Assembly (NCBI GenBank): GCA_020850945.1
Contig: JADZDR010000006.1
Coordinates: 1-45,948, forward strand
Length of the DNA: 45,948 nucleotides
Direction of reading: 5' to 3'
Origin: Acidimicrobiia bacterium
Lineage (GTDB): Bacteria; Actinomycetota; Acidimicrobiia; UBA2766
Position 1 is the stretch's first letter. Each line of letters starts with the position of its first letter. Made by a program: the position numbers and the translations under genes. The notes beneath the pieces are model-generated. The model saw only the letters and a program-made list of their open reading frames with translations. It searched no databases and had not been told where the DNA came from. Positions 13,136 to 28,229 of this stretch are shown here, piece after piece.

Positions 13136-13239
13136 ATGCCGAGTTGGTCACACCCTCGGAGAGGAGAAGGATAGGACCGCGGCGGCCACCGCGTTCCGGG
13201 GACTGGCTGCACCGGCTCCGTTCGTCCACACTTGCCCCG

Positions 13240-16131
13240 ATGGCGAAGCACCCCCACGTCGACCTGTCACCCCTCGCGCCGCACATCGGGGGACTGAGCG
13301 GCGAGGCCCGAGCCTCGCTCGGAGCCGAGCTGGCAGCCTGCGCAGATCCCGGTCGGGCGGTCCTGGCACTCGCGGGGATCCTCGAGGCCGACCGGGATGT
13401 GGCACCCACCGTCCTCGCCCAGGATGCCGGACGGCGCGCTCTGGTCACGCTGCTCGCCGCCTCACGGTCGATAGGGCAGTGGCTTCGCTCCCACCCGGAC
13501 GAGGCGGGGCCGCTCGCGTCTGCGACTGCGAGTGCGCCTCTGCCCGGCGTGGACACCCTGACCGAGATGGCGCGGTGCGAGGCCGAGGCGGCGGGTGACC
13601 CGATCGTGAACCTGCGCCGTTTCCGGCGCCGCTGGTTCATGCGGATCGCCCTCCGAGACCTTCTCATGCTCGCCCCGTTCGAGGAGGTCGGAACCGACCT
13701 CTCCGACCTCGCAGACGCCTGCCTCGAAGCTGCACTCCTCATCGCCACGGAGGGAGATGAGGCACAGCTCGCGATCGTGGCCATGGGCAAGCACGGTGGA
13801 CGGGAGCTCAACTACGCGTCCGATGTCGACGTCCTCTTCATCGGGGAGGACGACGCACCGGCGAAACGGCTCCTCTCGATCATGGCGCACCCCTCACCCG
13901 AGGGCATCGTGTGGAGGACGGACGCCGACCTCCGCCCCGAAGGCAGGGCGGGCCGCCTCGTGCGCTCGCTCGGTGCGTACGAGGCGTACTACCAGCGCTG
14001 GGCGGACGCGTGGGAGCTGCAGGCCCTGCTCAAGCGCAGGCCCGCGGCCGGTGATCTCACGCAGGGGCACGAGTTCTGCGCCATGTCGGGACGCTTCCTC
14101 TGGGACGAACCGCTGCCGGCAGATGCCCTCGAGGAGCTGCGCGGCATGAAGGCGCGCACGGAGGAGAAGGTGACGTCGGCGGGGCTGTCCGATCGCGAGG
14201 TCAAGCTCGGCCCGGGGGGGATCCGCGACGTCGAGTTCGCGGTCCAGCTCCTCCAGCTCGTCCATGGACGCGGTGATCCGGACATCAGGTCGAACAACAC
14301 TCTCGAGGCGCTCGAACAGCTCTCGGCGGCGGGGTACGTGTCCGTACGTGACGCCGAGGTCCTCTCCACCGCCTACCGGAAGCTGCGGTCCGTCGAGCAC
14401 ATGCTGCAGCTCGACTCCGAATCCCAGACCCACTCCCTGCCGACGGGGCAGGAGCACCTCGAACGGCTCGCGCGGCTCCTCGGGTTCCGGGCCGACGCGG
14501 CCGACTCCGCCACGGATCACTTCCTCGACGATTTCCGCGAGAACCTCGCGACTGTCCGCAGCGTGCACGAACGCCTCTTCTACCGACCGCTTCTCGAAGC
14601 CTTCGCGCATCAGGCAACGGCCGACAGTGACGGGCAGCTCACGGAGACGGCCGCCGAAGAACGGCTTGCCGCATTCGGCTTCGCAGACGCCCGTGCCACA
14701 CGACGTGCGCTCGAGACCCTGACGTCGGGCCTGTCGCGACGCTCGAATCTCATGGCAGCGACCCTGCCCCTCGTTCTCGACTGGCTGTCAGGCACTCCGG
14801 ATCCCGACCTCGGGCTCCTCATGCTCGAGCGCATCACGAGTGACCGCCACCGGGCCGAGACGCTGACGGCGATATTCCGCGAGTCACCACTCGCCGCGCA
14901 ACGCCTCTGCACTCTCATCGGCACGAGCCGGAGCATCGGCGAAGGGCTCGAGAGCTTCCCCGAGCTCCTTCTCATGCTGGAGGACGACTCGCAGCTCGCC
15001 CGGGTTCACACGCGGGACGAGCTCGTCGAGGGAGCCTCGCGCCAGCTCGCGTGGCGGGAGGACAGCGAAGGACACAAAGCAGGGCTGCGGCGGTTCGTGA
15101 GACGTGAGCGCACTCGGATCGGCATCCGCGACATCCTCGGCTTCACCGACCCCGACGGTGTGGCCGCAGAGCTCACCGCTCTCGCCGAGGCATGCCTCGA
15201 AGCGGGACTCCGGTCCGTCGCCGCCGACACAGCGGACCTCCCCCCCATCGCCGTCATCGGCATGGGGCGGCTCGGAGGCGGGGAGCTCGCCTACACCTCT
15301 GATGTCGACATCCTCCTCGTCTACGGAGATGGCACGCACACAGGTACGGGATCGGAGGCATGGGAGGAGTCCCGTACCGTCGAGAAGACCGCCAAGGCAC
15401 TCGTCGATCGCGTGGCGGCGCACACGGCCGATGGCCTCGCCTTCGACGTAGACCTCGACCTCCGCCCCGAGGGCAAGAGCGGCGTCATCGCGAGACGCCT
15501 GCCTGCCTACGTCCAGTACTGGGAGAGATGGGCGGAGACATGGGAGTTCCAGGCGCTGCTCCGGGCCCGACCCGTCGCGGGGGATCCCGATCTCGGAGCC
15601 GCCTTCATGGCTGCCGCGGAGCCGTTCGTGTACCGCGACCCCTTCCCTGAGCAGTGGCTCGCAGACGTGCGCCTCATGAAGGCACGCATCGACCGCGAAC
15701 GCCTGCCCAAGGGCACAGATCCGCACTTCCACCTCAAGCTGGGACGGGGTGGGCTCGTCGAGATCGAGTTCGCTGTCCAACTCCTCCAGCTCCGGTACGG
15801 CGCCACCGACCCGACAGTCCGTACCGCATCCACACACCTCGCGATCGAGGCCTTGGTCGAGAGCGGCCACGTGTCAGGCGACACGGGCGACCGGCTCGAC
15901 ACGGCGTACGCCTTCGTGAACCGGGTCCGCAACCGCATGGCTCTGCTCGACATCCGTGACACGTCCCGTCTTCCCGCCAGTGTCGAGGACTTGGACCGCC
16001 TCGCCCGCTCCCTCGGCTATGCGCACCATCCGGCCGGGTCTCTGCGCGAGGACTACCGGCGGGTCACGCGCCTCGCCCACAACGCCGCCGACGCCATCCT
16101 CTACCCGGAGGGACCGGCGTCGTGGCGCTGA
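13240..16131 (+). CDS. glnE: Bifunctional glutamine synthetase adenylyltransferase/adenylyl-removing enzyme
   Basis: Modifies and demodifies a tyrosine of adenylylatable glutamine synthetase, setting its activity to nitrogen status. The 963 aa length is typical. Two nucleotidyltransferase domains are clear, each with the metal-binding Asp pair: GKHGGRELNYASDVDVLFIG near residue 185 (adenylyl-removing half) and GMGRLGGGELAYTSDVDILLVY near residue 675 (adenylyltransferase half). Each is followed by a DLRPEG(K/R)-containing strand and a helical GlnD/UR-like segment. The ATG at 13240 is preferred to the in-frame GTG/ATG region at 13144, because the extra 32 residues are low-quality Arg-rich sequence. 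Its likely target GlnA1, with the modifiable Tyr, is 3 kb downstream. Confidence 0.97.
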   Translation: MAKHPHVDLSPLAPHIGGLSGEARASLGAELAACADPGRAVLALAGILEADRDVAPTVLAQDAGRRALVTLLAASRSIGQWLRSHPDEAGPLASATASAPLPGVDTLTEMARCEAEAAGDPIVNLRRFRRRWFMRIALRDLLMLAPFEEVGTDLSDLADACLEAALLIATEGDEAQLAIVAMGKHGGRELNYASDVDVLFIGEDDAPAKRLLSIMAHPSPEGIVWRTDADLRPEGRAGRLVRSLGAYEAYYQRWADAWELQALLKRRPAAGDLTQGHEFCAMSGRFLWDEPLPADALEELRGMKARTEEKVTSAGLSDREVKLGPGGIRDVEFAVQLLQLVHGRGDPDIRSNNTLEALEQLSAAGYVSVRDAEVLSTAYRKLRSVEHMLQLDSESQTHSLPTGQEHLERLARLLGFRADAADSATDHFLDDFRENLATVRSVHERLFYRPLLEAFAHQATADSDGQLTETAAEERLAAFGFADARATRRALETLTSGLSRRSNLMAATLPLVLDWLSGTPDPDLGLLMLERITSDRHRAETLTAIFRESPLAAQRLCTLIGTSRSIGEGLESFPELLLMLEDDSQLARVHTRDELVEGASRQLAWREDSEGHKAGLRRFVRRERTRIGIRDILGFTDPDGVAAELTALAEACLEAGLRSVAADTADLPPIAVIGMGRLGGGELAYTSDVDILLVYGDGTHTGTGSEAWEESRTVEKTAKALVDRVAAHTADGLAFDVDLDLRPEGKSGVIARRLPAYVQYWERWAETWEFQALLRARPVAGDPDLGAAFMAAAEPFVYRDPFPEQWLADVRLMKARIDRERLPKGTDPHFHLKLGRGGLVEIEFAVQLLQLRYGATDPTVRTASTHLAIEALVESGHVSGDTGDRLDTAYAFVNRVRNRMALLDIRDTSRLPASVEDLDRLARSLGYAHHPAGSLREDYRRVTRLAHNAADAILYPEGPASWR

Positions 16132-16150
16132 TACACCGCTCCCCCCCAAG

Positions 16151-16194
16151 ACTGGGTACCTGAGCGGCGATATATCGCCGCTCAGGTACCCAGT
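16151..16194. terminator. Perfect 44-nt palindrome between convergent glnE and CBS gene
   Basis: The two 22-nt arms are exact reverse complements around a TATA centre at 16171-16174. The element starts 19 nt after the glnE stop and overlaps the last four codons plus stop of the CBS gene. It can form a 20 bp hairpin in either transcript, but neither side has a U-tract. It is best read as a bidirectional U-less terminator or RNA-stabilising hairpin. Confidence 0.65.
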
Positions 16195-16673
16195 TGGTGT
16201 GTGGCGAGCCAGCGGACGAGGTCGCTGCGGGAGAGGAAGCCGACGACGACACCCTCGCCGTCGATGACGGCGAGGTGGTGCATCTTGTGGAACACCATGA
16301 GGGTGGCGGCGTCCTCGATCGACTCGTCGACGCCGATGGACGAGGGGTCGTCGTCCATCGCCTCACCTGCAGTCAGGGCGGCCATCTTCTTCATTCCCTT
16401 CCGGAACTTGCGGTAGGTCCCGGGGAACTCGATGTAGGCACCGAGAAGCTCGACGAACTGGGGCTCGGGCACACGGGCGATCTCGACGATGACGTCCTCG
16501 TTCCCGAGGAAACCGAGCAGATGGCCCTCCCCATCGACGACAGGCAGGCTGCTCACGTCGTGATTCGCCATGAGCGCGACGGCGTCCTCAATCGGGGTGT
16601 CGGGATGGACACACACGGGATCGGACGTCATGAGCTCTTGCACACCGATCTCGGCTGCGTTGGGCACGGTCAA
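16182..16673 (-). CDS. CBS-domain pair protein
   Basis: A 163 aa stand-alone Bateman module. The first CBS motif covers about residues 10-60 (LMTSDPVCVHPDTPIEDAV, SLPVVDGEGHLLGFL) and the second about 105-160 (AMDDDPSSIGVDESIEDAA, HLAVIDGEGVVVGFLSRSDL). The pair is separated by a 40-residue helical insert rich in Phe, Lys and Met. CBS pairs usually bind adenine nucleotides (AMP, ATP, SAM, c-di-AMP) and regulate a partner. No partner domain is fused. The last codons lie inside the perfect palindrome shared with glnE. It is divergent from the LuxR-type regulator, with 82 nt between starts. Confidence 0.9.
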   Translation of the reverse strand: MTVPNAAEIGVQELMTSDPVCVHPDTPIEDAVALMANHDVSSLPVVDGEGHLLGFLGNEDVIVEIARVPEPQFVELLGAYIEFPGTYRKFRKGMKKMAALTAGEAMDDDPSSIGVDESIEDAATLMVFHKMHHLAVIDGEGVVVGFLSRSDLVRWLATHQLGT

Positions 16674-16755
16674 TCTGGAACCTCCGGAGCCAGGCGGTCC
16701 CCGAGAGTGTAAGGGTTCTCCTCAATGCGAGCCGACGTCATGACGATTCGAGGAC

Positions 16756-17487
16756 ATGGGACTGATCCAGGACGATCGCATCCGCGTCTACGTCGTGACA
16801 GCCGACGAACACCTCGCCTCGTTGCTACGACAGGCCCTGCAGACCGACGGCGGGTTCTCGTGGTCGGGTTGGGCGCACCGGCGGGAGACGGCCGTGGACG
16901 AGATTCCGGACCGGCTGCCGCACGTGCTCCTGTCCGACCTGAGTGTGCCCGGGAGCAGTGACATCCCCGCCTGTGAGCTCCTCCTCGACAAGTTCCCCCA
17001 GATCCCCGTCGTCGTCGTCACGAAGAGGACGGACGGGGAACGGGCAGTCGACGCCATCCGTCTCGGTGTGGCCGGGTACGTGATCTTCGACGACGGCCTC
17101 GAGCTGGTACCCGAGGCGGCCCGCCGCGCAGTCACGGGCAAGCTCACGTTCTCCGACGGCGTCCTCGAGGCATTGACGCACGCCGTGGGACGAACGAGGC
17201 CCCACACCGGCCCCCGTGAGATCCACTCCCGATCCCTGGTCGACTCGGCAGCGTGGGAGGCGGCGGCAACGTTGACGGACAGTGCCTTCATGGACCTCAC
17301 GGCACGCGAGGCGCAGGTCATGAGTGAGCTCGCCCGCGGCCACGACAACCGCACGATCGGCCGGCACCTCGGCGTGACCGACGGCACCGTCGCCACGTAC
17401 ATCAAGCGCATCCGCCACAAGCTCGGTGCCGCCACGCGTACGGAGCTGACAGGGATCTCGGTGCGCATGGGCCTCGGGCGCCGCTGA
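16756..17487 (+). CDS. NarL/LuxR-family response regulator (orphan)
   Basis: A 243 aa two-domain regulator. The receiver spans about residues 9-125: an acidic residue at Asp17, the probable phospho-acceptor Asp61 in HVLLSDLSVPG, and TKRTD with the conserved Thr-Lys near 88. Residues 178-240 form a LuxR-type helix-turn-helix (LTAREAQVMSELARGHDNRTIGRHL, VTDGTVATYIKRIRHKL). The linker between them is long, about 50 residues. No histidine kinase is nearby, so it is an orphan with unknown input. It lies between the CBS protein and the wax ester synthase, converging on the latter with 9 nt between stops. Confidence 0.88.
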   Translation: MGLIQDDRIRVYVVTADEHLASLLRQALQTDGGFSWSGWAHRRETAVDEIPDRLPHVLLSDLSVPGSSDIPACELLLDKFPQIPVVVVTKRTDGERAVDAIRLGVAGYVIFDDGLELVPEAARRAVTGKLTFSDGVLEALTHAVGRTRPHTGPREIHSRSLVDSAAWEAAATLTDSAFMDLTAREAQVMSELARGHDNRTIGRHLGVTDGTVATYIKRIRHKLGAATRTELTGISVRMGLGRR

Positions 17488-17496
17488 GCCGGTCCT

Positions 17497-18861
17497 CTAC
17501 TCCAGCTCCGCCAGGGCCTTCTCGATCCCCTCGGCCATGATCCCGAGATCAGGGACGGCATCCCAATCGCCGGTGATGCCGAAGTTGAGCTGACCGTCGT
17601 AGCTGAGCACGGCGACACCGACGTCCGTCTTGTCGACAAGGGGGACGTAGGGAAAGGCCTCGAGCATCCGTGCCCCGCGGAAGTAGAGGGGGAACTGTGG
17701 TCCCGGCACGTTCGTCACGGTCAGGTTGATCGTCGACGTGCCGGCCATCGCCCGGCCGGCCAACGACAGCAGGGTCGGCGGCGCGAAGTCCGCCGCCCGC
17801 ATGATCGCATCGGCGCCGACGACGTCGTTGGAGTTCTTGAGCTCCGTCAGCTCCTCGTGGATCAGGCGGAGGCGCTCGCGGGGGTCGGGCTCACCGACCG
17901 GAAGGTGGGCGAACATGCCGCTCACCTTGTTCCCGAGTGTCATGCGCTCGCTGTCGGGGCGCACCGACATCGGCACGAGCGTGCGCATGTGCAGATCGGT
18001 CACGTCGTCCCCGCGGCTGGTCAGGATCGCCCGCAGCCCCGCCGTCACGATCGCGAGGACGACGTCGTTCACGGTGCACCCGTATCGGCGTTTGACCGCC
18101 TTCACGGCATCGAGGTCCGACCGCACGACCTCGAAGCGCCGGAACGCGCCGATGGGGACGTTGAGGGACGTGTGGGGGGCGGCCGCGAGACCCGACCGGC
18201 CGAAGGCAACGATGCTGCGGCCTGTCTCGATCGCGTTCTGCAGGGCTTGGCGGGGTCGCCGTGTCGCCGCCCGGAAGGTGCGCAGGATCTCGGCCGGCTC
18301 GGCGGCACGCTCGAGGAGCGTCTGGCGGAGGAGGTCGGTCTTCGTCGGAGCAGGCACTGGTTCCCACGCCGACTTCTCTGTCGGGGGGGCATCCGGCGTG
18401 AGGTCGAGGAGCACGGTGGCAACGTCCACTCCCGAGATGCCGTCGATGAGGGAGTGGTGCGTCTTCTGGAGCAGGGCCTTGCGGTTGTCGGGGAGGTCGA
18501 GGACCCAGATCTCCCAGAGCGGCCGCTTCCGGTCGAGGTGCGTGGACAGGATGCGGGCCGCTGTCGTGAGCAGCTCGCGCTCTCCTGCCGGATGCGGAAG
18601 GCCGGCGTGACGCACGTGATAGCGGACGTCGAAGTGCGCGTCGTCCACCCAGACGGGGCGGCCCTGGTGATAGGGCACCCACATGAGCTTGCGGCGGAAA
18701 CGGGGGACAAGGGCGAGTCTACGGTCGATGTGCTCGCAGATCTCCTCTAGATCCAGGCCGGGATCTTCGATTACCGCGACCGAGCCCACGTGCATGGGAA
18801 CCGTCGGCTGCTCCATGTAGAGAAAGGAGCAGTCCTGGGGTGAGAGCCGTTCGTATGCCAC
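17497..18861 (-). CDS. Wax ester synthase / diacylglycerol O-acyltransferase (WS/DGAT)
   Basis: Transfers an acyl group from acyl-CoA to diacylglycerol or a fatty alcohol, making storage triacylglycerol or wax ester at the membrane. The 454 aa protein has the condensing-type active-site motif HHSLIDG near residue 130, the N-terminal family start YERLSPQDCSFLYMEQ, and the C-terminal motif TNVPGPQFPLYF. The GTG at 18861 is chosen because AGGGAGG ends 5 nt before it and it brings the family motif to residue 3. The ATG at 18894 would add 11 residues and bypass this ribosome-binding site. The gene sits inside the nitrogen-assimilation block, which is notable because nitrogen limitation triggers lipid storage in actinobacteria. 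Confidence 0.93.
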   Translation of the reverse strand: MAYERLSPQDCSFLYMEQPTVPMHVGSVAVIEDPGLDLEEICEHIDRRLALVPRFRRKLMWVPYHQGRPVWVDDAHFDVRYHVRHAGLPHPAGERELLTTAARILSTHLDRKRPLWEIWVLDLPDNRKALLQKTHHSLIDGISGVDVATVLLDLTPDAPPTEKSAWEPVPAPTKTDLLRQTLLERAAEPAEILRTFRAATRRPRQALQNAIETGRSIVAFGRSGLAAAPHTSLNVPIGAFRRFEVVRSDLDAVKAVKRRYGCTVNDVVLAIVTAGLRAILTSRGDDVTDLHMRTLVPMSVRPDSERMTLGNKVSGMFAHLPVGEPDPRERLRLIHEELTELKNSNDVVGADAIMRAADFAPPTLLSLAGRAMAGTSTINLTVTNVPGPQFPLYFRGARMLEAFPYVPLVDKTDVGVAVLSYDGQLNFGITGDWDAVPDLGIMAEGIEKALAELE

Positions 18862-18895
18862 CACGTCCTCCCTACAACTTTCCACATCGGCCAAC

Positions 18896-18944
18896 CACGT
18901 GGGCGTATCCAGCCACCCCTACGGTATCTCAATACGCCCACGTG
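18896..18944. terminator. 13-bp perfect inverted repeat between glnA1 and the WS/DGAT gene
   Basis: CACGTGGGCGTAT at 18896-18908 is the exact reverse complement of 18932-18944, with a 23-nt loop. It lies 29 nt after the glnA1 stop and 34 nt before the WS/DGAT start, both on the minus strand. No U-tract follows. It may end glnA1 transcription, or be an operator for the storage-lipid gene. Confidence 0.5.
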
Positions 18945-18973
18945 TGTCGGCGGGAGGTGTCTGGCCTTGTGGC

Positions 18974-20410
18974 TCAGATGTCGTAGTAGAGGGAGAACTC
19001 GTAGGGGTGGGGCCGCAGGGCGATCTGCGCGACCTCGTTCTCACGCTTGTAGGTGCACCACGTCTCGATCACGTCGGTCGTGAAGACCCCGCCCTGGGTG
19101 AGGAAGTCGGAGTCGGCCTCGAGGGCGGCGAGAGCCTCGTCGAGCGATCCGGGCACCTGTGGCACCTGGGCGAGCTCGGCCGGCGGCAGGTCGTAGAGGT
19201 CCTTGTCCACCGGCGCCGGGGGTTCGATCTTGTTCTGGATCCCGTCGATCCCGGCACACACCATCGCCGCGAACGCGAGGTACGGGTTGCAGGACGGGTC
19301 GGGACAGCGGAACTCGATCCGCTTCGCCTTGGGCGAGTTCGAATAGAGCGGGATGCGGCACGCCGCCGAACGGTTGCGCTGGCTGTACACGAGGTTCACG
19401 GGTGCCTCGTATCCCGGGACGAGACGCTTGTACGAGTTCGTCGTCGGGTTCGTGAACGCGAGGATCGCAGACGCGTGCGAGAGGAGACCGCCGATGTAGT
19501 AGCGAGCCATGTCGGACAGGCCGGCGTAGCCCGCTTCGTCGAAGAACAGAGGCTCATCGCCGTTCCAGAGCGACTGGTGGACGTGCATGCCGGACCCGTT
19601 GTCCTGGAAGACGGGCTTGGGCATGAACGTCACCGACTTCCCGGCCTGACGCGCGACGTTCTTGACGACGTACTTGTAGAGCATCGTCTTGTCCGCCATG
19701 GCGAGCAGGGTGTCGAAACGCATGTCGATCTCGGCTTGGCCGGCCGTACCGACCTCGTGGTGCTGTACCTCGATCGGGATACCGACCGATTCGAGGACCG
19801 CCACCATCTCGTTGCGCAGGTCCTGGTAGTGGTCCATGGGCGGGACGGGAAAGTAGCCCTCCTTGTATCGGGGCTTGTACCCGAGGTTGGGGCTGCCGTC
19901 GAGCTCCGTGGCCGCGCCCGTGTTCCAAGCGCCCTCGAGCGAGTCGACCTCGTAGTAGCCCGAGTTGTAGGTCTGGTCGAACCGCACGTTGTCGAAGATG
20001 TAGAACTCCGCCTCGGGGCCGAAGTACGCGGTGTCGGCGATCCCCGTGCTCTTCACGTAGTCCTCGGCCTTCTGGGCGATCCAGCGCGGGTCACGCGTGT
20101 ACATCTCACCCGTGACCGGATCCTTCACGTTGCAGTTGATGTCGAGCTGCTTGCGGGCCGAGAAAGGATCGATGATCGCGGTCGAGGGATCGGGGATGAG
20201 CAACATGTCGGATTCCTGGATCTCCTGGAATCCACGGATGGAGCTCCCGTCGAAGCCGAGGCCCTCCTCGAAGACCGCCTCGTCGAACTCGTGAGCGGGA
20301 ATCGTGAAGTGCTGCATGAGCCCGGGTAGGTCACAGAAGCGCACATCGATGAACTCGATCTCTTCGCTCCTGACCTGTTCGACGATCTCGCTGGGCGTCC
20401 GCTCTGCCAT
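18974..20410 (-). CDS. glnA1: Glutamine synthetase type I-beta (adenylylatable)
   Basis: ATP-dependent condensation of ammonia and glutamate to glutamine, the main ammonium assimilation step; acts as a cytoplasmic dodecamer. At 478 aa it has the length of the I-beta class. Visible family marks are [17 protein letters not shown], the latch region, [23 protein letters not shown] and NRSAACRIP. Tyr406 in [11 protein letters not shown] corresponds to the adenylylation site Tyr397 of the enteric enzyme, making this the probable GlnE substrate. The ATG at 20410 is preceded by GGAGG eight nt upstream; the extra 12 codons to 20446 are not needed. It is divergent from glnA2 across 200 nt. Confidence 0.97.
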
Positions 20411-20610
20411 GTGATCAACCTCCGTCTGCGCGCAGGGTCGGCGCACGTGCGGGGATCCTACGTTGATGCAGTCAATTCACGCATGGCCGGTACGTAAACA
20501 TCCAGGTCACGGCATCCATGCCGCCAAGCGGGCGTCGCGTTGGAAACAATGCCGCAACACGGGGCATCTAGGCTCGCGAGATCCCAAGTCCCTACCGAGG
20601 AGCAGCGGCG
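20411..20610. promoter_or_regulatory. glnA1-glnA2 divergent control region
   Basis: 200 nt that must hold both promoters. A GAAAC at 20543-20547 is followed, after 6 nt, by GCAAC at 20554-20558. This resembles two half-sites of the actinobacterial GlnR box (GAAAC and GTNAC spaced by 6) with one mismatch. A TAGGAT that could serve as the glnA1 -10 lies on the minus strand near 20455-20460. No strong -35 is seen for either gene. Confidence 0.35.
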
Positions 20611-21936
20611 GTGGATCGCCAGCAGGAATACGTCCTGAGAACGGTCGAGGAGCGGGGGGTGAGGTTCATCCGCCTCTGGTTCACCGACGTCCTCGGCTTT
20701 CTCAAGTCGTTCGCAATCACCCCGCAGGAGCTCGAGAACGCGTTCAGCGAGGGCATGCACTTCGACGGCTCGGCCATCGAGGGCTTCGCCCGTGTGCAGG
20801 AATCGGACATGGTCGCGCGGCCCGACCCGAACACCTTCGCCCTCCTTCCCTGGCGACCGGATGACGAACCGACCGCCCGTATGTTCTGTGACATCGTCCT
20901 GCCCGACGGATCTCCGTTCGAGGGAGATCCGCGCTGGGTGCTGCGGCGCAACCTGCAACGCGCGACGGAAGCCGGATTCACGTTCTTCGTCGCACCCGAG
21001 ATGGAGTACTTCCTCTTCGCCGGCCCGCAGGATCCCACACCACTCGACACGGCGGGCTACTTCGACCTCACGCCGAGTGACGAGGCACGGGGCCTGAGAC
21101 GCCGCACGATCGAAGCCGTCGAGGCCATGGGGATCCCCGTCGAGTACAGCCATCACGAGGTCGGGCCGAGTCAGCACGAGATAGACCTCCGCTATGCCGA
21201 CGCCCTCATGATGGCGGACAGCATCATGACCTTCCGCCTCACCGTGAAGCAGGTTGCCGAGTCCGCGGGTGTCTACGCCACGTTCATGCCGAAGCCGCTC
21301 ACAGGCGAGGCCGGCTCGGCCATGCACACCCATCAGTCCCTCTTCGAGGGCGACCAGAACGCCTTCTTCGACCCGGCCGACGAGTACGGCCTCTCGAAGG
21401 TCGGCAAGGGCTACGTCGCCGGCCTCCTCACACATGCACGCGAGATGGCAGCGATCACGAACCAGTGGGTCAACTCCTACAAGCGACTCGCGACGGGGTA
21501 CGAGGCGCCGACTTTCGTGTGCTGGGGCCGACACAACAGATCCGCGCTGGTACGCGTACCCCGCGCGAAGCCCGGCAAGGAACAGGCCGCCCGCATCGAG
21601 TTCCGTGCACCGGACTCGGCCTGCAACCCGTATCTCGCATTCGCCGTCATGCTCGCCGCCGGCATGCGTGGAGTCGAGGAGGGCTACGAACTGCCACCGG
21701 AGGCCTCCGACAACATCTACGAGATGTCCCCGGAGGAGCGGCGCGCATCGGGCCTGCGGTCCCTGCCGTCATCCCTCATGTCGGCACTCGAGGAGATGGA
21801 ACGATCCGAGCTCATGGCGGAGGCTCTCGGCGAGCACGTCTTCGAGTGGTTCCTTCGCAACAAACGTGAGGAGTGGCAGTCGTTCCGGGCGAAGGTGACA
21901 CCTTACGAGATCGAGCGCTACCTGCCACAGCTCTGA
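20611..21936 (+). CDS. glnA2: Glutamine synthetase, type I short (alpha-like) form
   Basis: A second glutamine synthetase or GS-like ligase, 441 aa, 37 residues shorter than GlnA1 and lacking the I-beta insertion. GS motifs are intact: FDGSAIEGFARVQESDM, FVAPEMEYFLF, GSAMHTHQSLFEGD, NSYKRLATGYEAP and NRSALVRVP. Tyr370 in NIYEMSPEER occupies the adenylylation-site position, but short-form enzymes also keep a Tyr there without being modified, so GlnE control is uncertain. The start is a GTG at 20611 with GAGGAG nine to ten nt upstream. The GlnR-like regulator follows 17 nt after the stop, suggesting co-transcription. It is named for its position next to glnE and glnA1, as in mycobacteria; a gamma-glutamylpolyamine synthetase role is the main alternative. 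Confidence 0.9.
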   Translation: MDRQQEYVLRTVEERGVRFIRLWFTDVLGFLKSFAITPQELENAFSEGMHFDGSAIEGFARVQESDMVARPDPNTFALLPWRPDDEPTARMFCDIVLPDGSPFEGDPRWVLRRNLQRATEAGFTFFVAPEMEYFLFAGPQDPTPLDTAGYFDLTPSDEARGLRRRTIEAVEAMGIPVEYSHHEVGPSQHEIDLRYADALMMADSIMTFRLTVKQVAESAGVYATFMPKPLTGEAGSAMHTHQSLFEGDQNAFFDPADEYGLSKVGKGYVAGLLTHAREMAAITNQWVNSYKRLATGYEAPTFVCWGRHNRSALVRVPRAKPGKEQAARIEFRAPDSACNPYLAFAVMLAAGMRGVEEGYELPPEASDNIYEMSPEERRASGLRSLPSSLMSALEEMERSELMAEALGEHVFEWFLRNKREEWQSFRAKVTPYEIERYLPQL

Positions 21937-21953
21937 TCGGAGACGACCTGCAC

Positions 21954-22637
21954 GTGGATCCCCTACTTGTGTTTCCACCGGGTGACGAGGACCTCGCCGC
22001 TCTCCTCGAGGCGTCCGCATATCCGTTCGAGTTCGTCGACAGCCCGGAAACGGCCGACTCCAAGGAACCTGTGGACGGCTGGGCGGGCGCGATCGTGTCG
22101 ACCGCCGCCGATGCCGACTCTGCGTACGAGCTGTGCCGGCACCTCCGCCACCGGGAACCGGCGCCACCCCTACAACCGTTGGTCCTCATCGTGAGTGCAG
22201 ACTCGCTCGCCGACCTCGAGGTTCGCGACGATCTCTTCGACGAGTTCATCGTCGACTCCCAGGTCGGCACCGAGCTCACGGCACGCCTGCGGCACCGCTT
22301 CTACAGAACGGGCCGCGGCACACACCCGGACCTCGTCGAGTACGGGGCGCTCATCCTGAACCCCGAGACCTACCAGGCCGCGATCGGGGGCCGTCCCCTC
22401 GACTTGACGTTCATGGAGTACGAGCTCCTCAAGTTCTTCGCGACCCACCCCGGCAAGGTCTTCACGCGAGAGGTGCTTCTCAGTCGCGTCTGGGGCTACG
22501 ACTACTACGGGGGCGCCCGCACAGTGGATGTCCACGTGCGGCGTCTTCGTGCGAAGCTCGGCGAGGAGTACGCCCACTACATCGCCACCGTGCGCTCCGT
22601 CGGCTACCGCTTCGGTGCCGCCCGCCTCTCGGTCTGA
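21954..22637 (+). CDS. GlnR-like OmpR-family orphan response regulator with atypical receiver
   Basis: A 227 aa regulator. Residues 1-125 look like a degenerate receiver (LLVFPPGDEDLAALLEAS, GWAGAIVSTAADADS) lacking the acidic pair and a clear phospho-acceptor Asp. Residues 130-225 are an OmpR winged helix (PLDLTFMEYELLKFFATHPGKVFTREVL, then WGYDYYGGARTVDVHVRRLRAKL, then VRSVGYRFGA), which closely follows the actinobacterial GlnR pattern. GlnR controls nitrogen genes without phosphorylation at the usual Asp. The GTG at 21954, with GGAGA about 10 nt upstream, is chosen because the longer frame overlaps glnA2. Placement directly behind glnA2 supports the nitrogen role. A phosphate (RegX3-like) or other OmpR function is the alternative, but those have intact receivers. 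Confidence 0.82.
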   Translation: MDPLLVFPPGDEDLAALLEASAYPFEFVDSPETADSKEPVDGWAGAIVSTAADADSAYELCRHLRHREPAPPLQPLVLIVSADSLADLEVRDDLFDEFIVDSQVGTELTARLRHRFYRTGRGTHPDLVEYGALILNPETYQAAIGGRPLDLTFMEYELLKFFATHPGKVFTREVLLSRVWGYDYYGGARTVDVHVRRLRAKLGEEYAHYIATVRSVGYRFGAARLSV

Positions 22638-23633: not shown

Positions 23634-24032
23634 CTACCTCTCGGCTGCCGTGACCTCTATCTCGACGCACGCCCCGGCTGGGAGCCCCGCGACTCCGACC
23701 GCTGACCGCGCGGGAGGGAGATGCGTGAAACAGGAGCCCCAGATCTCGTTCAGCTTCGGCCAGTCGGCCAGATCCGTGAGGTACACCACGCCGCGCACGA
23801 CATCCCCGAAACCGAGGCCGCAATCCTCGAGCACGCTCCCGACGTTGCCGAGGGCCTGGTGGGCCTCGGCCTCGACCCCACCGTCCACGAGCCGTTGGGA
23901 CTCGTAGTCCCAACCGACCTGGCCGGCGAGGAAGACGAAGCCGCCGCTGCGCACGGCAACCGAATACGGCCCGAGTGGCTGCACCACACTCGTCTGTACG
24001 GCTTCCTTCTTCGGCTCCTTGGGAGACGGCAC
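23634..24032 (-). CDS. RidA-family protein (enamine/imine deaminase)
   Basis: A 132 aa member of the YjgF/RidA family, which forms trimers and hydrolyses reactive enamines/imines or acts as a related amidase. Family marks are LGPYSVAVRSGGFVFLAGQVGWD near residue 17, the Arg in LPPARSAVGVAGLP that binds substrate carboxylate, and the Glu in CVEIEVTA. The start is the GTG at 24032 because AGGAGG lies 7 nt upstream; the larger open frame to 24374 is antisense to the molybdopterin gene. The start lies 4 nt beyond the stop of the Fe-S/molybdopterin fusion, indicating coupling. A role in disposing of a reactive product of that enzyme is inference. Confidence 0.9.
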   Translation of the reverse strand: MPSPKEPKKEAVQTSVVQPLGPYSVAVRSGGFVFLAGQVGWDYESQRLVDGGVEAEAHQALGNVGSVLEDCGLGFGDVVRGVVYLTDLADWPKLNEIWGSCFTHLPPARSAVGVAGLPAGACVEIEVTAAER

Positions 24033-24036
24033 CGGT

Positions 24037-25893
24037 TCACCTCCTGCGTGCGCGGGTCGCGGGTACCGAGTCGAGCATGGGGAGTTGCCGCACGGCCGCG
24101 TGGTCCCCGAAGCGTAGGCGCAGGGCGACCGCCACGGCAGCCGGCACCGCCGCCACCGCGAAGTCGGCGACCGGCTCGGAGACGGCATCCTCGCTGGCGG
24201 CCTCGACCTCCAGCACGCGCATCGGAGGTGTGTCCCCGCAGCGCAACAAGCCGAGTGACCGCATCGTGCCCGGCGTCGGGACTCCGGCCCGCATCGGCAC
24301 CGTCTCGGACAGAGCGAGGCCGAGGCCCATGTAGGCGCCTGACATGATGTCACGTTCACGGTGGGCTGGTTCACCCCCGCCCACGGCCAAGGTCAGGGCC
24401 GTGACGTCCCCTGAATCCGCGAGCATGACAGCGGCCGCGACGGCTGCCCGATGCGAACCTGCCACCGCCCAACCGTCGGCGGCGCCGAGCGCCGCGACAC
24501 ACCGACTCGGCATGCTCGCGAGTGAATCGGCACGCCCGACACCCGCGTCGAGCAGCGCGTGCTCGAGTCCGAAAGTCCAGTGCAGGAGCCCGTCGCCCCG
24601 GAGCGGCGCCGCGGGTCGGCCCGCCACGACCTCGACGTGCACGTCGATCGGAACGTCGTAGGGGCACGGTCCGATGTCGGCGCCTCCTCCGGCCAGGACG
24701 ACACGACCGTCGATGCGAACGAGGCGGCCTCCGTGCACGGCGAGGTCGACCTCCACCTTTGCCGGGTGGCGACGTGGATGCCAGAGGATCGACTCGCGTC
24801 GCCCGAACACGAAGCCGACGCGGCGGTCCGTCACCTCGGCCGCGGCGGCAGCGAGCAGCGCCGGCACCGGACTCGCCTTGCCCCCGTAGGACCCACCCTG
24901 CGTCACCACTTCGAGGTGCACGGACCGGTCCGGCCACGCGGATTCGAGGGCTGTGCGCGTGGCATGAGGCCGGTCGCTCTGTGTGCGCACATGGAGACCG
25001 GCCGGGTCGACAGCGGCGAACGCCGCCTCGGGCTCGAGGAAGCCGGGATCCTGCACGGGTGTGAGCCATTCCGCGGAGTCGAGCGGCCCCGGGGAGGGAT
25101 CGGGCACACCGTCTCGGGTGTGGATCCGGCATGCCTCTGCCGTCCTGCGTGCCGCCGCCACCGTCGTTCCCAGGGCGAGAGCCACGATGTCACCCGGGTC
25201 GCCGATCGTCTCACCGAGACCGAGCATCGTCCCCGGCGGCAGTCGCGACCCGAGGTCGGCACACGTGAGGATGCCCTCTCCGACGACATCGTCGAGGATC
25301 CCGACGCATGTGCCTGCACAGACGGGCATCGCCCAGATCTCCGCGTCCGTCGTGTCGGCGAGGTAGCGGTGCCTGCCGAGCACGATGTCGAACGCTTCGG
25401 CCCGGGCGTGCCCGTCCCCGTCCGCCACGGCATCCGGAACCGCAGCCGTTGTGGCGGCGTCGACCACGGACTGCCAGCCGGTGCAGCGGCACAGGTGCGC
25501 GGCCAGCGCCCGGTCGACGTGGCGACGGTCGGGAACGTCGCCCTCATTCAGGAGAGCGTGGAGGCGCACGGCGATCCCCGGGGTGCAGAAACCGCAGACG
25601 AACGCGTCGGATCTCCAGAATGCGTCGGCGATCCTGCTGCGAAGTGGCTCGGAGAGCCCTTCGACCGTGGTGACCTCCCTGTTCCGAACACGTGAGATCG
25701 GTGTCACGCACGCGAGTCGTGGTGCCCCGTCGACGAGGACGCAACATGCGCCACACTGACCCTGGGGCGCGCACCCGTCTTTCACGCACGTCTTGCCGAG
25801 GGTGTCACGCAGGACTTCGAGAAGGGACCCGTCGGCGCGGACCTCGACATCGTGACCGTCCACACGAAGGTGGATCGTCTCCTCAGGGCTCAC
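24037..25893 (-). CDS. Compact fusion of [2Fe-2S] subunit and molybdopterin-binding subunit, xanthine dehydrogenase/aldehyde oxidase family
   Basis: A 618 aa single-chain protein. Residues 1-165 equal a CoxS/XdhC-type iron-sulfur subunit: a plant-type [2Fe-2S] site with cysteines at 41, 47, 50 and 62, then a second site with CGFCTPG and CRCTG. Residues about 170-618 correspond to the molybdopterin subunit, with GGSYGGKASPVPALLAAAA (the GGxFGGK region) and a C-terminal SEPVADFAVAAVPAA segment resembling the catalytic Glu loop. The molybdopterin part is about 450 aa, against 750-800 usually, so parts are missing or shortened. No FAD subunit or cofactor-insertion gene is adjacent. The GTG start at 25893 has a weak ribosome-binding site and is 18 nt after the IscA-like stop. 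Substrate unknown. Confidence 0.85.
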   Translation of the reverse strand: MSPEETIHLRVDGHDVEVRADGSLLEVLRDTLGKTCVKDGCAPQGQCGACCVLVDGAPRLACVTPISRVRNREVTTVEGLSEPLRSRIADAFWRSDAFVCGFCTPGIAVRLHALLNEGDVPDRRHVDRALAAHLCRCTGWQSVVDAATTAAVPDAVADGDGHARAEAFDIVLGRHRYLADTTDAEIWAMPVCAGTCVGILDDVVGEGILTCADLGSRLPPGTMLGLGETIGDPGDIVALALGTTVAAARRTAEACRIHTRDGVPDPSPGPLDSAEWLTPVQDPGFLEPEAAFAAVDPAGLHVRTQSDRPHATRTALESAWPDRSVHLEVVTQGGSYGGKASPVPALLAAAAAEVTDRRVGFVFGRRESILWHPRRHPAKVEVDLAVHGGRLVRIDGRVVLAGGGADIGPCPYDVPIDVHVEVVAGRPAAPLRGDGLLHWTFGLEHALLDAGVGRADSLASMPSRCVAALGAADGWAVAGSHRAAVAAAVMLADSGDVTALTLAVGGGEPAHRERDIMSGAYMGLGLALSETVPMRAGVPTPGTMRSLGLLRCGDTPPMRVLEVEAASEDAVSEPVADFAVAAVPAAVAVALRLRFGDHAAVRQLPMLDSVPATRARRR

Positions 25894-25911: not shown

Positions 25912-26289
25912 TCAGCTGAAGCTGTTCCCGCACCCACAGGAACGCGAGGCATTGGGGTTCTCGATCGTGAAGCCGCTGTCCATCAACCCGTCCTTGAAAT
26001 CGAGGACGGCTCCGCCCAGCCAGGGAAGGGAGTCCGGATCGACGACGAGCCGCACTCCTCCGAGCTCGGTGACGACATCCTCCCGCGTCGTCTCCCCGTC
26101 GAAGAACATCTCGTAGCTGAAACCCGAGCAGCCACCGGGTCGTACTGCGACACGCAGGGCGAGGGTGTCGTCGCCCTCGGCCGCGAGCAGCTCCTTCACC
26201 TTGCGGGCCGCCCCGTCGGTCATCACCATCCCCTGCTGCTTCTTGGAACGCAGGTTCAACTTCACTTTGCTGGCTGTGGTCTCACTCAC
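25912..26289 (-). CDS. A-type iron-sulfur carrier (IscA/ErpA/HesB-like)
   Basis: A 125 aa iron-sulfur carrier or scaffold. The three conserved cysteines are in RPGGCSGFSYEMFF and the C-terminal RSCGCGNSFS. The fold core runs MTDGAARKVKELLAAEG to the end. The GTG at 26289 is chosen: AGGAG lies 9 nt upstream and it overlaps the regulator's stop by 4 nt. An internal ATG would remove about 20 basic residues. It is placed directly before a protein carrying two [2Fe-2S] clusters and after a cysteine-bearing regulator, so it may serve that enzyme specifically. Confidence 0.93.
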   Translation of the reverse strand: MSETTASKVKLNLRSKKQQGMVMTDGAARKVKELLAAEGDDTLALRVAVRPGGCSGFSYEMFFDGETTREDVVTELGGVRLVVDPDSLPWLGGAVLDFKDGLMDSGFTIENPNASRSCGCGNSFS

Positions 26290-26966
26290 GTCGAGTTGCT
26301 CCTCTCGTCGTCCTGTCCTGTGAACAACACCCTGCACGGACCCGAGCCCTCGAGGCTCCGGAAGTCCTCGACGTGACCGCCGTGGAATCCGATGAGGCCG
26401 TCGACGAGGCCGGCATGGAGCGTGCAGACGATCTCGGGATGTGCTTCGGCGACCCCGCGGACAGGGCAACTCGTGAAGACGACGCAGCCGTCCTCCGTTG
26501 CGGGCCCGAAGCCGAGCCTGTCCATGCCGGAGTCGAGCGCGCTCAGGAGGTCGGCGCCGCGACCGGCCGACGCGATCTCGAGACCGATGCCACGGCCCAC
26601 GGTCAGCAGGTCCTCGCTGCTGTGTTGGAGGTCGCCGCAGACGTCGGCGAGCATGCGGGCGAGCAGGGCGTAGACATCGTCGATGTCGTCGCGGCGGTGC
26701 AGCTCGATGTCGGTGGGGACCGCGACGTACCTGTGCTGGGGACGCCCCACCGAGCCCTGCGGTGTGGCGTCGAGCTCGACGAGCCCCACGCCACGGAGAC
26801 GTTCGAGGTGCGGACGGACGGTGTTGGGGTGGAGACCGAAGTTGTCTGCGATGTCGTTGATCGTGGCAGGCTCCGTGCGCGCGCGCAGCCAGTCGTAGAT
26901 GTCGTAGCGCGTCTCGTCTCCGAGCGCCTTCAGGATCGGCCTCACGGTCGACTGCACGGCGTGCAT
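26286..26966 (-). CDS. SufR-like winged-helix regulator with C-terminal cysteine cluster
   Basis: A 226 aa transcription factor. Residues 8-80 are an ArsR/DeoR-type winged helix (LKALGDETRYDIYDWL, LHPNTVRPHLERLRGVGLVEL, then a wing with GRPQHRYV). The C-terminal half carries CPVRGVAEAHPEIVC, giving C167-x13-C181 and a further Cys at 211, plus Cys161. This is the arrangement seen in iron-sulfur-binding SufR-type repressors. It likely senses iron-sulfur status and controls its own operon and perhaps the divergent mrp. The start is the ATG at 26966 with GGAGG two to three nt upstream, which is tight, so a GTG three codons in is possible. The open frame to 28091 is an antisense shadow of mrp. Confidence 0.88.
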   Translation of the reverse strand: MHAVQSTVRPILKALGDETRYDIYDWLRARTEPATINDIADNFGLHPNTVRPHLERLRGVGLVELDATPQGSVGRPQHRYVAVPTDIELHRRDDIDDVYALLARMLADVCGDLQHSSEDLLTVGRGIGLEIASAGRGADLLSALDSGMDRLGFGPATEDGCVVFTSCPVRGVAEAHPEIVCTLHAGLVDGLIGFHGGHVEDFRSLEGSGPCRVLFTGQDDERSNST

Positions 26967-27071: not shown

Positions 27072-28229
27072 ATGCCAGATGCGACGACACGTGAAGACCT
27101 CATCTCGGCCCTGCGCGGCGTCATCGACCCCGAGCTCCACGCCAACATCGTCGACCTCGGCATGGTGCGGGATGTGGCGATCGCCGAAGACGGCGGCGTC
27201 GACGTGCGCATCGCCCTCACCGTGGCGAGTTGCCCCCTGCGTGGCCAGATCGAGAGCGATGTCTGCAATCGCATCCGCATGCTGCCGGGTGTCTCCGACG
27301 TGCGATTCCACATGGACGTCCTCAACCAGGAGGAGAAGGCACGCCTCATGGATCGGGCGCGACGCAGCGCGCGTGAGAACGCCGACCCGACGGAGGTCCC
27401 ACCCACGACACGGGCGATCGCGGTGTCGAGTGGCAAAGGGGGTGTCGGCAAGAGCACGACGACCGCGAACGTCGCTGTCGCACTCGCCGACCTCGGCTTC
27501 ACGGTAGGGGTCCTCGACGCCGACATCTGGGGTTTCTCGGTCGACCGCATGCTCGGAGTCGAGGGCCGCCTCTCCGGCCACGACGGCAAGATCGAGCCGA
27601 TCCGAGTCGACGGCCCCGGCACGGTCAAGGTCGTCTCCATGGGGCTCCTCGTGGACGACGAGGAGCAGGCCCTCATGTGGCGGGGTCTCGTCCTCACCAG
27701 AGCCGTGGAGCAGTTCCTTCGGGATGTGCGCTGGGGTGACCTCGACTACCTCGTGATCGACATGCCACCGGGAACAGGCGACATCCAGATGGGGCTCGCC
27801 CGCATGCTTCCCCAGGCCGCGATGCTGCTCGTGACGACCCCGCAGAAGGTCGCACAGAAAGTCGCCGTGCGGGCCGGGAACATGGCGCGGCGCTCTCACA
27901 TGCCTGTGCTCGGCGTGGTCGAGAACATGTCCGAGTTCGTGTGCGAACACGGCGCCGCGTACCACCTCTTCGGCTCGGGTGGGGGGACCGCCCTTTCCGC
28001 GCAGCTCGGCGTGCCCCTCCTCGCGTCCGTACCCCTCGATCCCCTCAGCATGGCGGCTGCCGACGGTGGCACCCCCGTCGTGCGTGCACATCCCGAGTCG
28101 CCGGCGGCTGTCGCGTACACGGACCTGGCGTCCCGCATCGCCCGCGATGTCCTTCCGCCCCTCGTCCTGACCGGCTGCACGGCCCGCATCGAGCAGATCT
28201 TCGACGACCTCGAGGCGGCGCCGGGCTGA
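27072..28229 (+). CDS. mrp: Mrp/NBP35-type P-loop ATPase, iron-sulfur carrier
   Basis: Binds and transfers iron-sulfur clusters in an ATP-dependent way. The 385 aa product has an N-terminal MIP18/DUF59 domain (residues 1-90, GVIDPELHANIVDLGMV, VASCPLRGQIE) and a P-loop domain with the deviant Walker A VSSGKGGVGKSTTTANVAVA near residue 118, LDADIWGFS and IDMPPGTGD. The cluster-binding CxxC usually following VENMS is reduced to one Cys (FVCEHGAAYH), so any bridging cluster needs another ligand. Actinobacterial Mrp proteins often lack this motif. The ATG at 27072 has GAGGAG upstream. It is divergent from the SufR-like operon. Confidence 0.94.
   Translation: MPDATTREDLISALRGVIDPELHANIVDLGMVRDVAIAEDGGVDVRIALTVASCPLRGQIESDVCNRIRMLPGVSDVRFHMDVLNQEEKARLMDRARRSARENADPTEVPPTTRAIAVSSGKGGVGKSTTTANVAVALADLGFTVGVLDADIWGFSVDRMLGVEGRLSGHDGKIEPIRVDGPGTVKVVSMGLLVDDEEQALMWRGLVLTRAVEQFLRDVRWGDLDYLVIDMPPGTGDIQMGLARMLPQAAMLLVTTPQKVAQKVAVRAGNMARRSHMPVLGVVENMSEFVCEHGAAYHLFGSGGGTALSAQLGVPLLASVPLDPLSMAAADGGTPVVRAHPESPAAVAYTDLASRIARDVLPPLVLTGCTARIEQIFDDLEAAPG

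Follow-up and report, generated by a model that had tools for sequence, protein, structure and literature searches.

A compact [2Fe-2S] protein of the Acidimicrobiia as a probable molybdenum-free descendant of single-chain xanthine dehydrogenases

The compact gene and its domains

The window, that is, the whole 45,948-nucleotide stretch of acidimicrobial DNA analyzed here, carries on its minus strand an uninterrupted reading frame with zero internal stops, whose product joins an N-terminal [2Fe-2S] domain to a remnant of a molybdopterin-binding part (Table 1). The frame lies within a tight run of minus-strand genes in the order regulator, ErpA, compact gene, and RidA.

Table 1. Features of the compact gene, its product, and its surroundings in the window.
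Feature	Position	Strand	Basis or remark
Compact [2Fe-2S]/Moco-domain-remnant protein	24037..25893	-	618 aa, GTG start, TGA stop
N-terminal two-cluster [2Fe-2S] domain, residues 1-150	25444..25893	-	Pfam Fer2/Fer2_2
Remnant of molybdopterin-binding part, residues 156-618 (~460 aa)	24040..25428	-	partial MoCoBD_1; deletion map against full-size relatives
GGSYGGK loop, residues 333-339, sole Moco-type loop kept	24877..24897	-	alignment
SEP (residues 572-574), not conserved and distinct from the Glu position	24172..24180	-	alignment
D577, aligned with catalytic Glu of full-size xanthine dehydrogenases	24163..24165	-	joint alignment
RidA-family (imine/enamine deaminase) gene	23634..24032	-	PF01042, 4.9e-32; starts 4 nt past the compact stop
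A-type Fe-S carrier, ErpA-like	25912..26289	-	Pfam Fe-S_biosyn; upstream of the compact gene at a distance of 18 nt
Winged-helix (ArsR/SufR-like HTH) regulator with three C-terminal Cys	26286..26966	-	4-nt overlap with the start of ErpA
Divergently oriented Mrp/ApbC-type P-loop Fe-S carrier	27072..28229	+	Pfam scan
GlnE	13144-16131	+
Glutamine synthetase	18974-20446	-
Glutamine synthetase	20611-21936	+
GlnR-like regulator	21873-22637	+

The initial annotation had described a complete iron-sulfur domain followed by a molybdopterin part of about 450 residues, and both observations hold. The Fer2 and Fer2_2 domains are complete, and the eight cluster cysteines (Cys 41, 47, 50, 62, 100, 103, 135, and 137 in the window protein) are present and, in the alignment, invariant in 38/38 compact proteins: the protein thus has the eight conserved cysteines for two [2Fe-2S] clusters that are a trait of the xanthine oxidase family. 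The second part, at its measured length, matches only positions 33-167 of the 244 in the MoCoBD_1 profile, and the Pfam scan of the protein returned no match to MoCoBD_2, the hammerhead domain, or other Mo-domain families. A scan of about 30 window reading frames against Pfam revealed no FAD-domain gene, in keeping with the reported absence of an FAD subunit. The closest curated NCBIfam model is that of selenium-dependent xanthine dehydrogenase (TIGR03311), which the window protein matches with 193.5 bits, below the equivalog cut-off of 830 bits and with the Fe-S part as the best stretch; the score against the molybdopterin-dependent aldehyde oxidoreductase model NF045668 is 118.3 bits, with an equivalog cut-off of 1100.

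The gene is real, intact, and under selection. For the closest pair of orthologues dN/dS amounts to 0.13, and the C-terminal part beyond the Fe-S domain is likewise under purifying selection (dS 0.157, dN 0.024). Intact frames and selection rule out a frameshift, an assembly artefact, or a pseudogene as the origin of the window frame.

Lost and kept cofactor segments and the predicted fold

The full-size relatives are about 860 residues long and score 794-822 bits against TIGR03311. In these proteins the segments SGGQG, NGGAFGGKED, GAFRGFG, MGQGVHT, TTGSRGT, and KGVGE are invariant or nearly so, and we take them to hold or serve the cofactor. The deletion of MGQG and TTGSRGT extends to every one of the 38 aligned compact proteins, and none of them (0/38) has the SGGQG sequence: the aligned loop is deleted in 35 and consists of other residues in three, one of which is the window protein. 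According to the deletion map, at least 80% of the compact proteins have no equivalent of residues 555-602 and 616-731 of the full-size relatives; the window protein lacks residues 586-602 and 616-734, among others. From the complete set of Moco-binding segments characteristic of the xanthine oxidase family (SGGQG, GGxFGGK, MGQG, TTGSRGT), GGxFGGK alone remains. It was correctly recognized in the initial annotation and reads GGSYGGK in the window protein; the general form GGxxGxK is kept in nearly all compact proteins, with the second G, the fourth-position G, and the K found in 38/38. In the taxonomic family of the window, less of the old Mo domain has been lost than in the other compact proteins, and this family may therefore show the reduction at an earlier stage.

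The catalytic glutamate, which in the xanthine oxidase family resides in the KGVGE loop, is replaced in the window protein by D577. Among the compact proteins this position is occupied by Asp in 33/38, by Glu in 2/38, and by Ala, Gly, or Met in 3/38, so that an acidic residue is found in 35/38. The suggestion that a C-terminal SEP segment may carry the catalytic glutamate is rejected on the basis of the alignment to the full-size relatives: the glutamate of SEP, E573, lies four residues from the aligned position, and SEP is missing in the three nearest relatives.

The compact proteins resemble both TIGR03311 and the full-size relatives of the class (L042-L051) in their single chain, their domain order, and their [2Fe-2S] domain, and share the NGGAFGGK, HMGLG, and TLRS segments with them. 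They differ from TIGR03311 in their scores of 144-194 bits (cut-off 830), in the three lost segments, and in having mostly Asp in place of Glu. The AF2 models of the window protein (pLDDT 86.3, pTM 0.88) and of a typical 514-residue member (pLDDT 94.8, pTM 0.93) both align over nearly their full length to structures of the xanthine oxidase family. Superposition on Desulfovibrio gigas aldehyde oxidoreductase (MOP, PDB 1SIJ) gives a Z score of 26.9 over 594/618 residues at 3.0 Å for the former and of 24.0 over 479 residues at 2.7 Å for the latter. The common fold of the Fe-S and Mo-binding domains of this family is thus predicted to be retained with about 300-400 fewer residues. The D. gigas enzyme, which the compact protein resembles in fold, domain order, and lack of an FAD domain, comprises 907 residues with bound MCD and the catalytic Glu869 (PMC10223205); the window protein is about 290 residues shorter.

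Within the old cofactor domain, the polar residues K339, R365, R375, E530, T543, R545, and S546 are invariant. Because these residues and GGxxGxK have been preserved, some ligand may still bind to the compact protein. This is the basis of an alternative that we regard as unlikely yet worth weighing, namely that the protein is Moco-free and that its remodelled cavity accommodates a different small molecule (a nucleotide, pterin, or flavin, for instance) for catalysis or sensing, with electrons delivered or accepted by the [2Fe-2S] clusters. The polar residues conserved without exception beyond the Fe-S domain, the very confident model of the remnant in the 514-residue member, and the purifying selection on the C-terminal part all fit such a role. 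However, apart from the old GGxxGxK loop no known ligand-binding motif was recognized, and several of these residues do not vary in the full-size relatives either, so that their role may be structural.

Class-wide distribution, origin, and Moco supply

Orthologues occur in all three of the other searched genomes of the window's taxonomic family (3/3), in one case split across two contigs. Matches below 1e-30 are found in 239/395 genomes of the class, many of them open frames of 500-650 residues, a count that also includes full-size relatives, since their Fe-S part matches. To tell compact from full-size proteins, a profile was built from 38 compact proteins. Its full-length matches, at 1e-145 or better, are confined to the class Acidimicrobiia, and the phylum sample contained no compact orthologue from outside the class; the matches that follow, at about 1e-67 and weaker, correspond to the Fe-S part of frames that mostly measure 820-1200 residues. 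The compact orthologues are about 510-710 residues long, with a median of about 530. Their presence across the class, together with the dN/dS of the closest pair, argues against a one-off truncation and for more than chance. No description of this family was found in the literature searched.

In a tree of the Fe-S domain, the compact proteins form one clade with a support of 100/100. With 99/99, this clade joins the full-size xanthine dehydrogenases of the single-chain type from its own class, and the separate small Fe-S subunits fall outside the group; one scan of genome contigs yielded such separate small subunits only. The compact clade has a single origin, and the loss probably occurred before the class diversified. 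One further compact frame, L060 (G208), breaks off early (374 aa) with unrelated sequence at its end, which looks like a frameshift or an assembly error.

Whether the host can make Moco differs among the holders of the gene. The window's own genome contains MoaA, MoeA, and MoaC as well as a full-size Mo subunit elsewhere; consequently, the argument for independence from Moco rests on seven relatives. These seven genomes (G105, G117, G393, G375, G325, G054, and G230) belong to four genera of one taxonomic family and are 91-97% complete. Neither MoeA_N nor the C-terminal domain of MoaA was found in any of them, and they contain no MoCoBD_1 protein at E<=0.001 and no other detectable xanthine-oxidase-type Mo subunit. 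The compact gene is nevertheless intact in all seven, with E values of 1e-184 or better: it is kept where, as judged from the undetected MoaA and MoeA, Moco cannot be made. Each of the seven genomes shows one weak match to Molydop_binding. The two such genes examined lie directly upstream of a gene that by eye encodes a NuoH-like membrane protein and are, likewise by eye, consistent with NuoG, which itself needs no Moco. Two further genomes without MoaA and MoeA, G027 and G302, were left out of the argument; as both carry full-size Mo subunits, the missing genes are probably assembly gaps. MoaC, which is present in most genomes of the class, was not used as a criterion on its own because some of the seven genomes retain a match to it: G325, G054, and G230 have kept this orphan MoaC, with MoaA and MoeA not found.

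Judging from these sequence comparisons, the compact protein is very probably Moco-free. The initial annotation had left the choice between a trimmed active enzyme and a repurposed protein. Because the Moco-contact segments are mostly deleted, the glutamate is replaced, and seven holders have no detectable MoaA or MoeA, repurposing is by far the likelier of the two, and the trimmed active enzyme loses ground. The latter would be an FAD-less Mo hydroxylase that passes electrons to an external acceptor in the manner of D. gigas aldehyde oxidoreductase, and it could point to the predicted fold shared with that enzyme, to the preserved GGxxGxK loop, to the predominantly acidic residue at the glutamate position, and to the Moco genes of the window's genome. 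We nonetheless consider it very unlikely: two Moco-binding segments are missing throughout and another has been either deleted or substituted, the acidic residue is Asp in most members, and the gene persists in seven genomes in which MoaA, MoeA, and any other MoCoBD_1 protein escape detection.

Still less probable is that the compact protein is one half of a split Mo enzyme whose other subunit supplies the missing subdomain, as in nicotinate dehydrogenase. Split Mo subunits do exist in the family, and chain A of PDB 3hrd, with 425 residues, is named a large molybdopterin subunit; but no such gene adjoins the conserved locus, the seven holder genomes offer no other MoCoBD_1 protein as a partner, and the deletion is internal, with retained sequence on both sides. 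Gene decay, to which the loss of catalytic features and the variable length (512-710 aa) might point, is refuted by the open frame and its conservation across the class, the low dN/dS, the invariant cysteines, and the conserved operon.

Conserved neighbours and a proposed role

The explanation we favor, and hold to be likely, is that the compact gene is a molybdenum-free descendant of a single-chain, FAD-less, TIGR03311-like xanthine dehydrogenase of about 860 residues, whose product would serve as a dual-[2Fe-2S] relay or sensor. The ancestor would have lost a contiguous subdomain and several cofactor-holding loops before the class diversified, and both [2Fe-2S] sites would have been retained along with a refolded part of the Mo domain. 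Taken by itself, the relay or sensor role is a tentative assignment. It is suggested by an analogy with NuoG and StnC, where a molybdoenzyme-derived domain is kept in an Fe-S electron path without Mo catalysis. NuoG is of the formate dehydrogenase/DMSO-reductase type, the other large molybdoenzyme family, and not of the xanthine-oxidase type, and the compact protein would be its xanthine-oxidase-type counterpart, an inactive molybdoenzyme put to use as a wire or platform. In both NuoG and StnC the Mo domain of the molybdoenzyme fold has no catalytic activity and lies in the Fe-S electron path (PMC10482914).

Across the class the order regulator, ErpA, compact gene, and RidA is conserved. Of 40 loci, 36 have ErpA upstream and 33 have RidA downstream, in each case on the strand of the compact gene; a divergent Mrp-type Fe-S carrier is found upstream in 33/40, and a convergent GlnR downstream in 35/40. 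In one additional locus (L065:6435-8564, G278) the compact protein and a C-terminal RidA domain are fused in frame to a protein of 710 residues, and a single holder (L071) is devoid of ErpA, RidA, Mrp, and GlnR neighbours. The two operon partners are recognizable as an ErpA-type Fe-S insertion protein, with 118.6 bits against the NCBIfam ErpA equivalog cut-off of 117, and a RidA-type deaminase; no link of either to a compact-like protein was found in the literature searched. RidA protects PLP enzymes, including the cysteine desulfurase IscS, from 2-aminoacrylate (PMC9239102), and this shielding of IscS offers one plausible explanation for the association of RidA with Fe-S genes.

Based on this setting, ErpA (or the Suf system) may load the two [2Fe-2S] clusters into the compact protein, which could then act as a redox relay or as a redox-sensing partner of RidA in imine detoxification and Fe-S maintenance, exchanging electrons with an external small carrier. 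That Moco was lost across the class in one ancient event and gave rise to a relay or sensor associated with ErpA and RidA is a scenario that we put forward with some reserve. If correct, it would provide a clear class-wide case in which a molybdoenzyme of the xanthine-oxidase type was converted to a protein without molybdenum while its Fe-S wiring stayed in place, and the compact protein would link Fe-S homeostasis to imine detoxification. The compact operon allows a direct test of the connection of RidA with Fe-S delivery by ErpA and Mrp. Moreover, such genes should not be annotated as xanthine dehydrogenases or counted as molybdenum demand.

Several minor features of the locus deserve mention. 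By eye, the three C-terminal cysteines of the regulator resemble those of SufR; its match to the SufR model TIGR02702 covers the HTH only, with 30 bits against an equivalog cut-off of 178.8. Its C-terminal CP...VC...PC pattern is kept in relatives, and the protein may be a divergent SufR-like Fe-S sensor. In some genomes (L066:5000-5950 and L072:5273-6238) ErpA and the compact gene are separated by an additional gene, whose product resembles, by eye, a lipoprotein that includes a thioredoxin-like segment; this gene was rejected as a partner on account of its opposite strand. Finally, a nitrogen-control cluster adjoins the locus (window 13144-22637), and the order of glutamine synthetase and GlnR beside the compact locus is conserved across the class.
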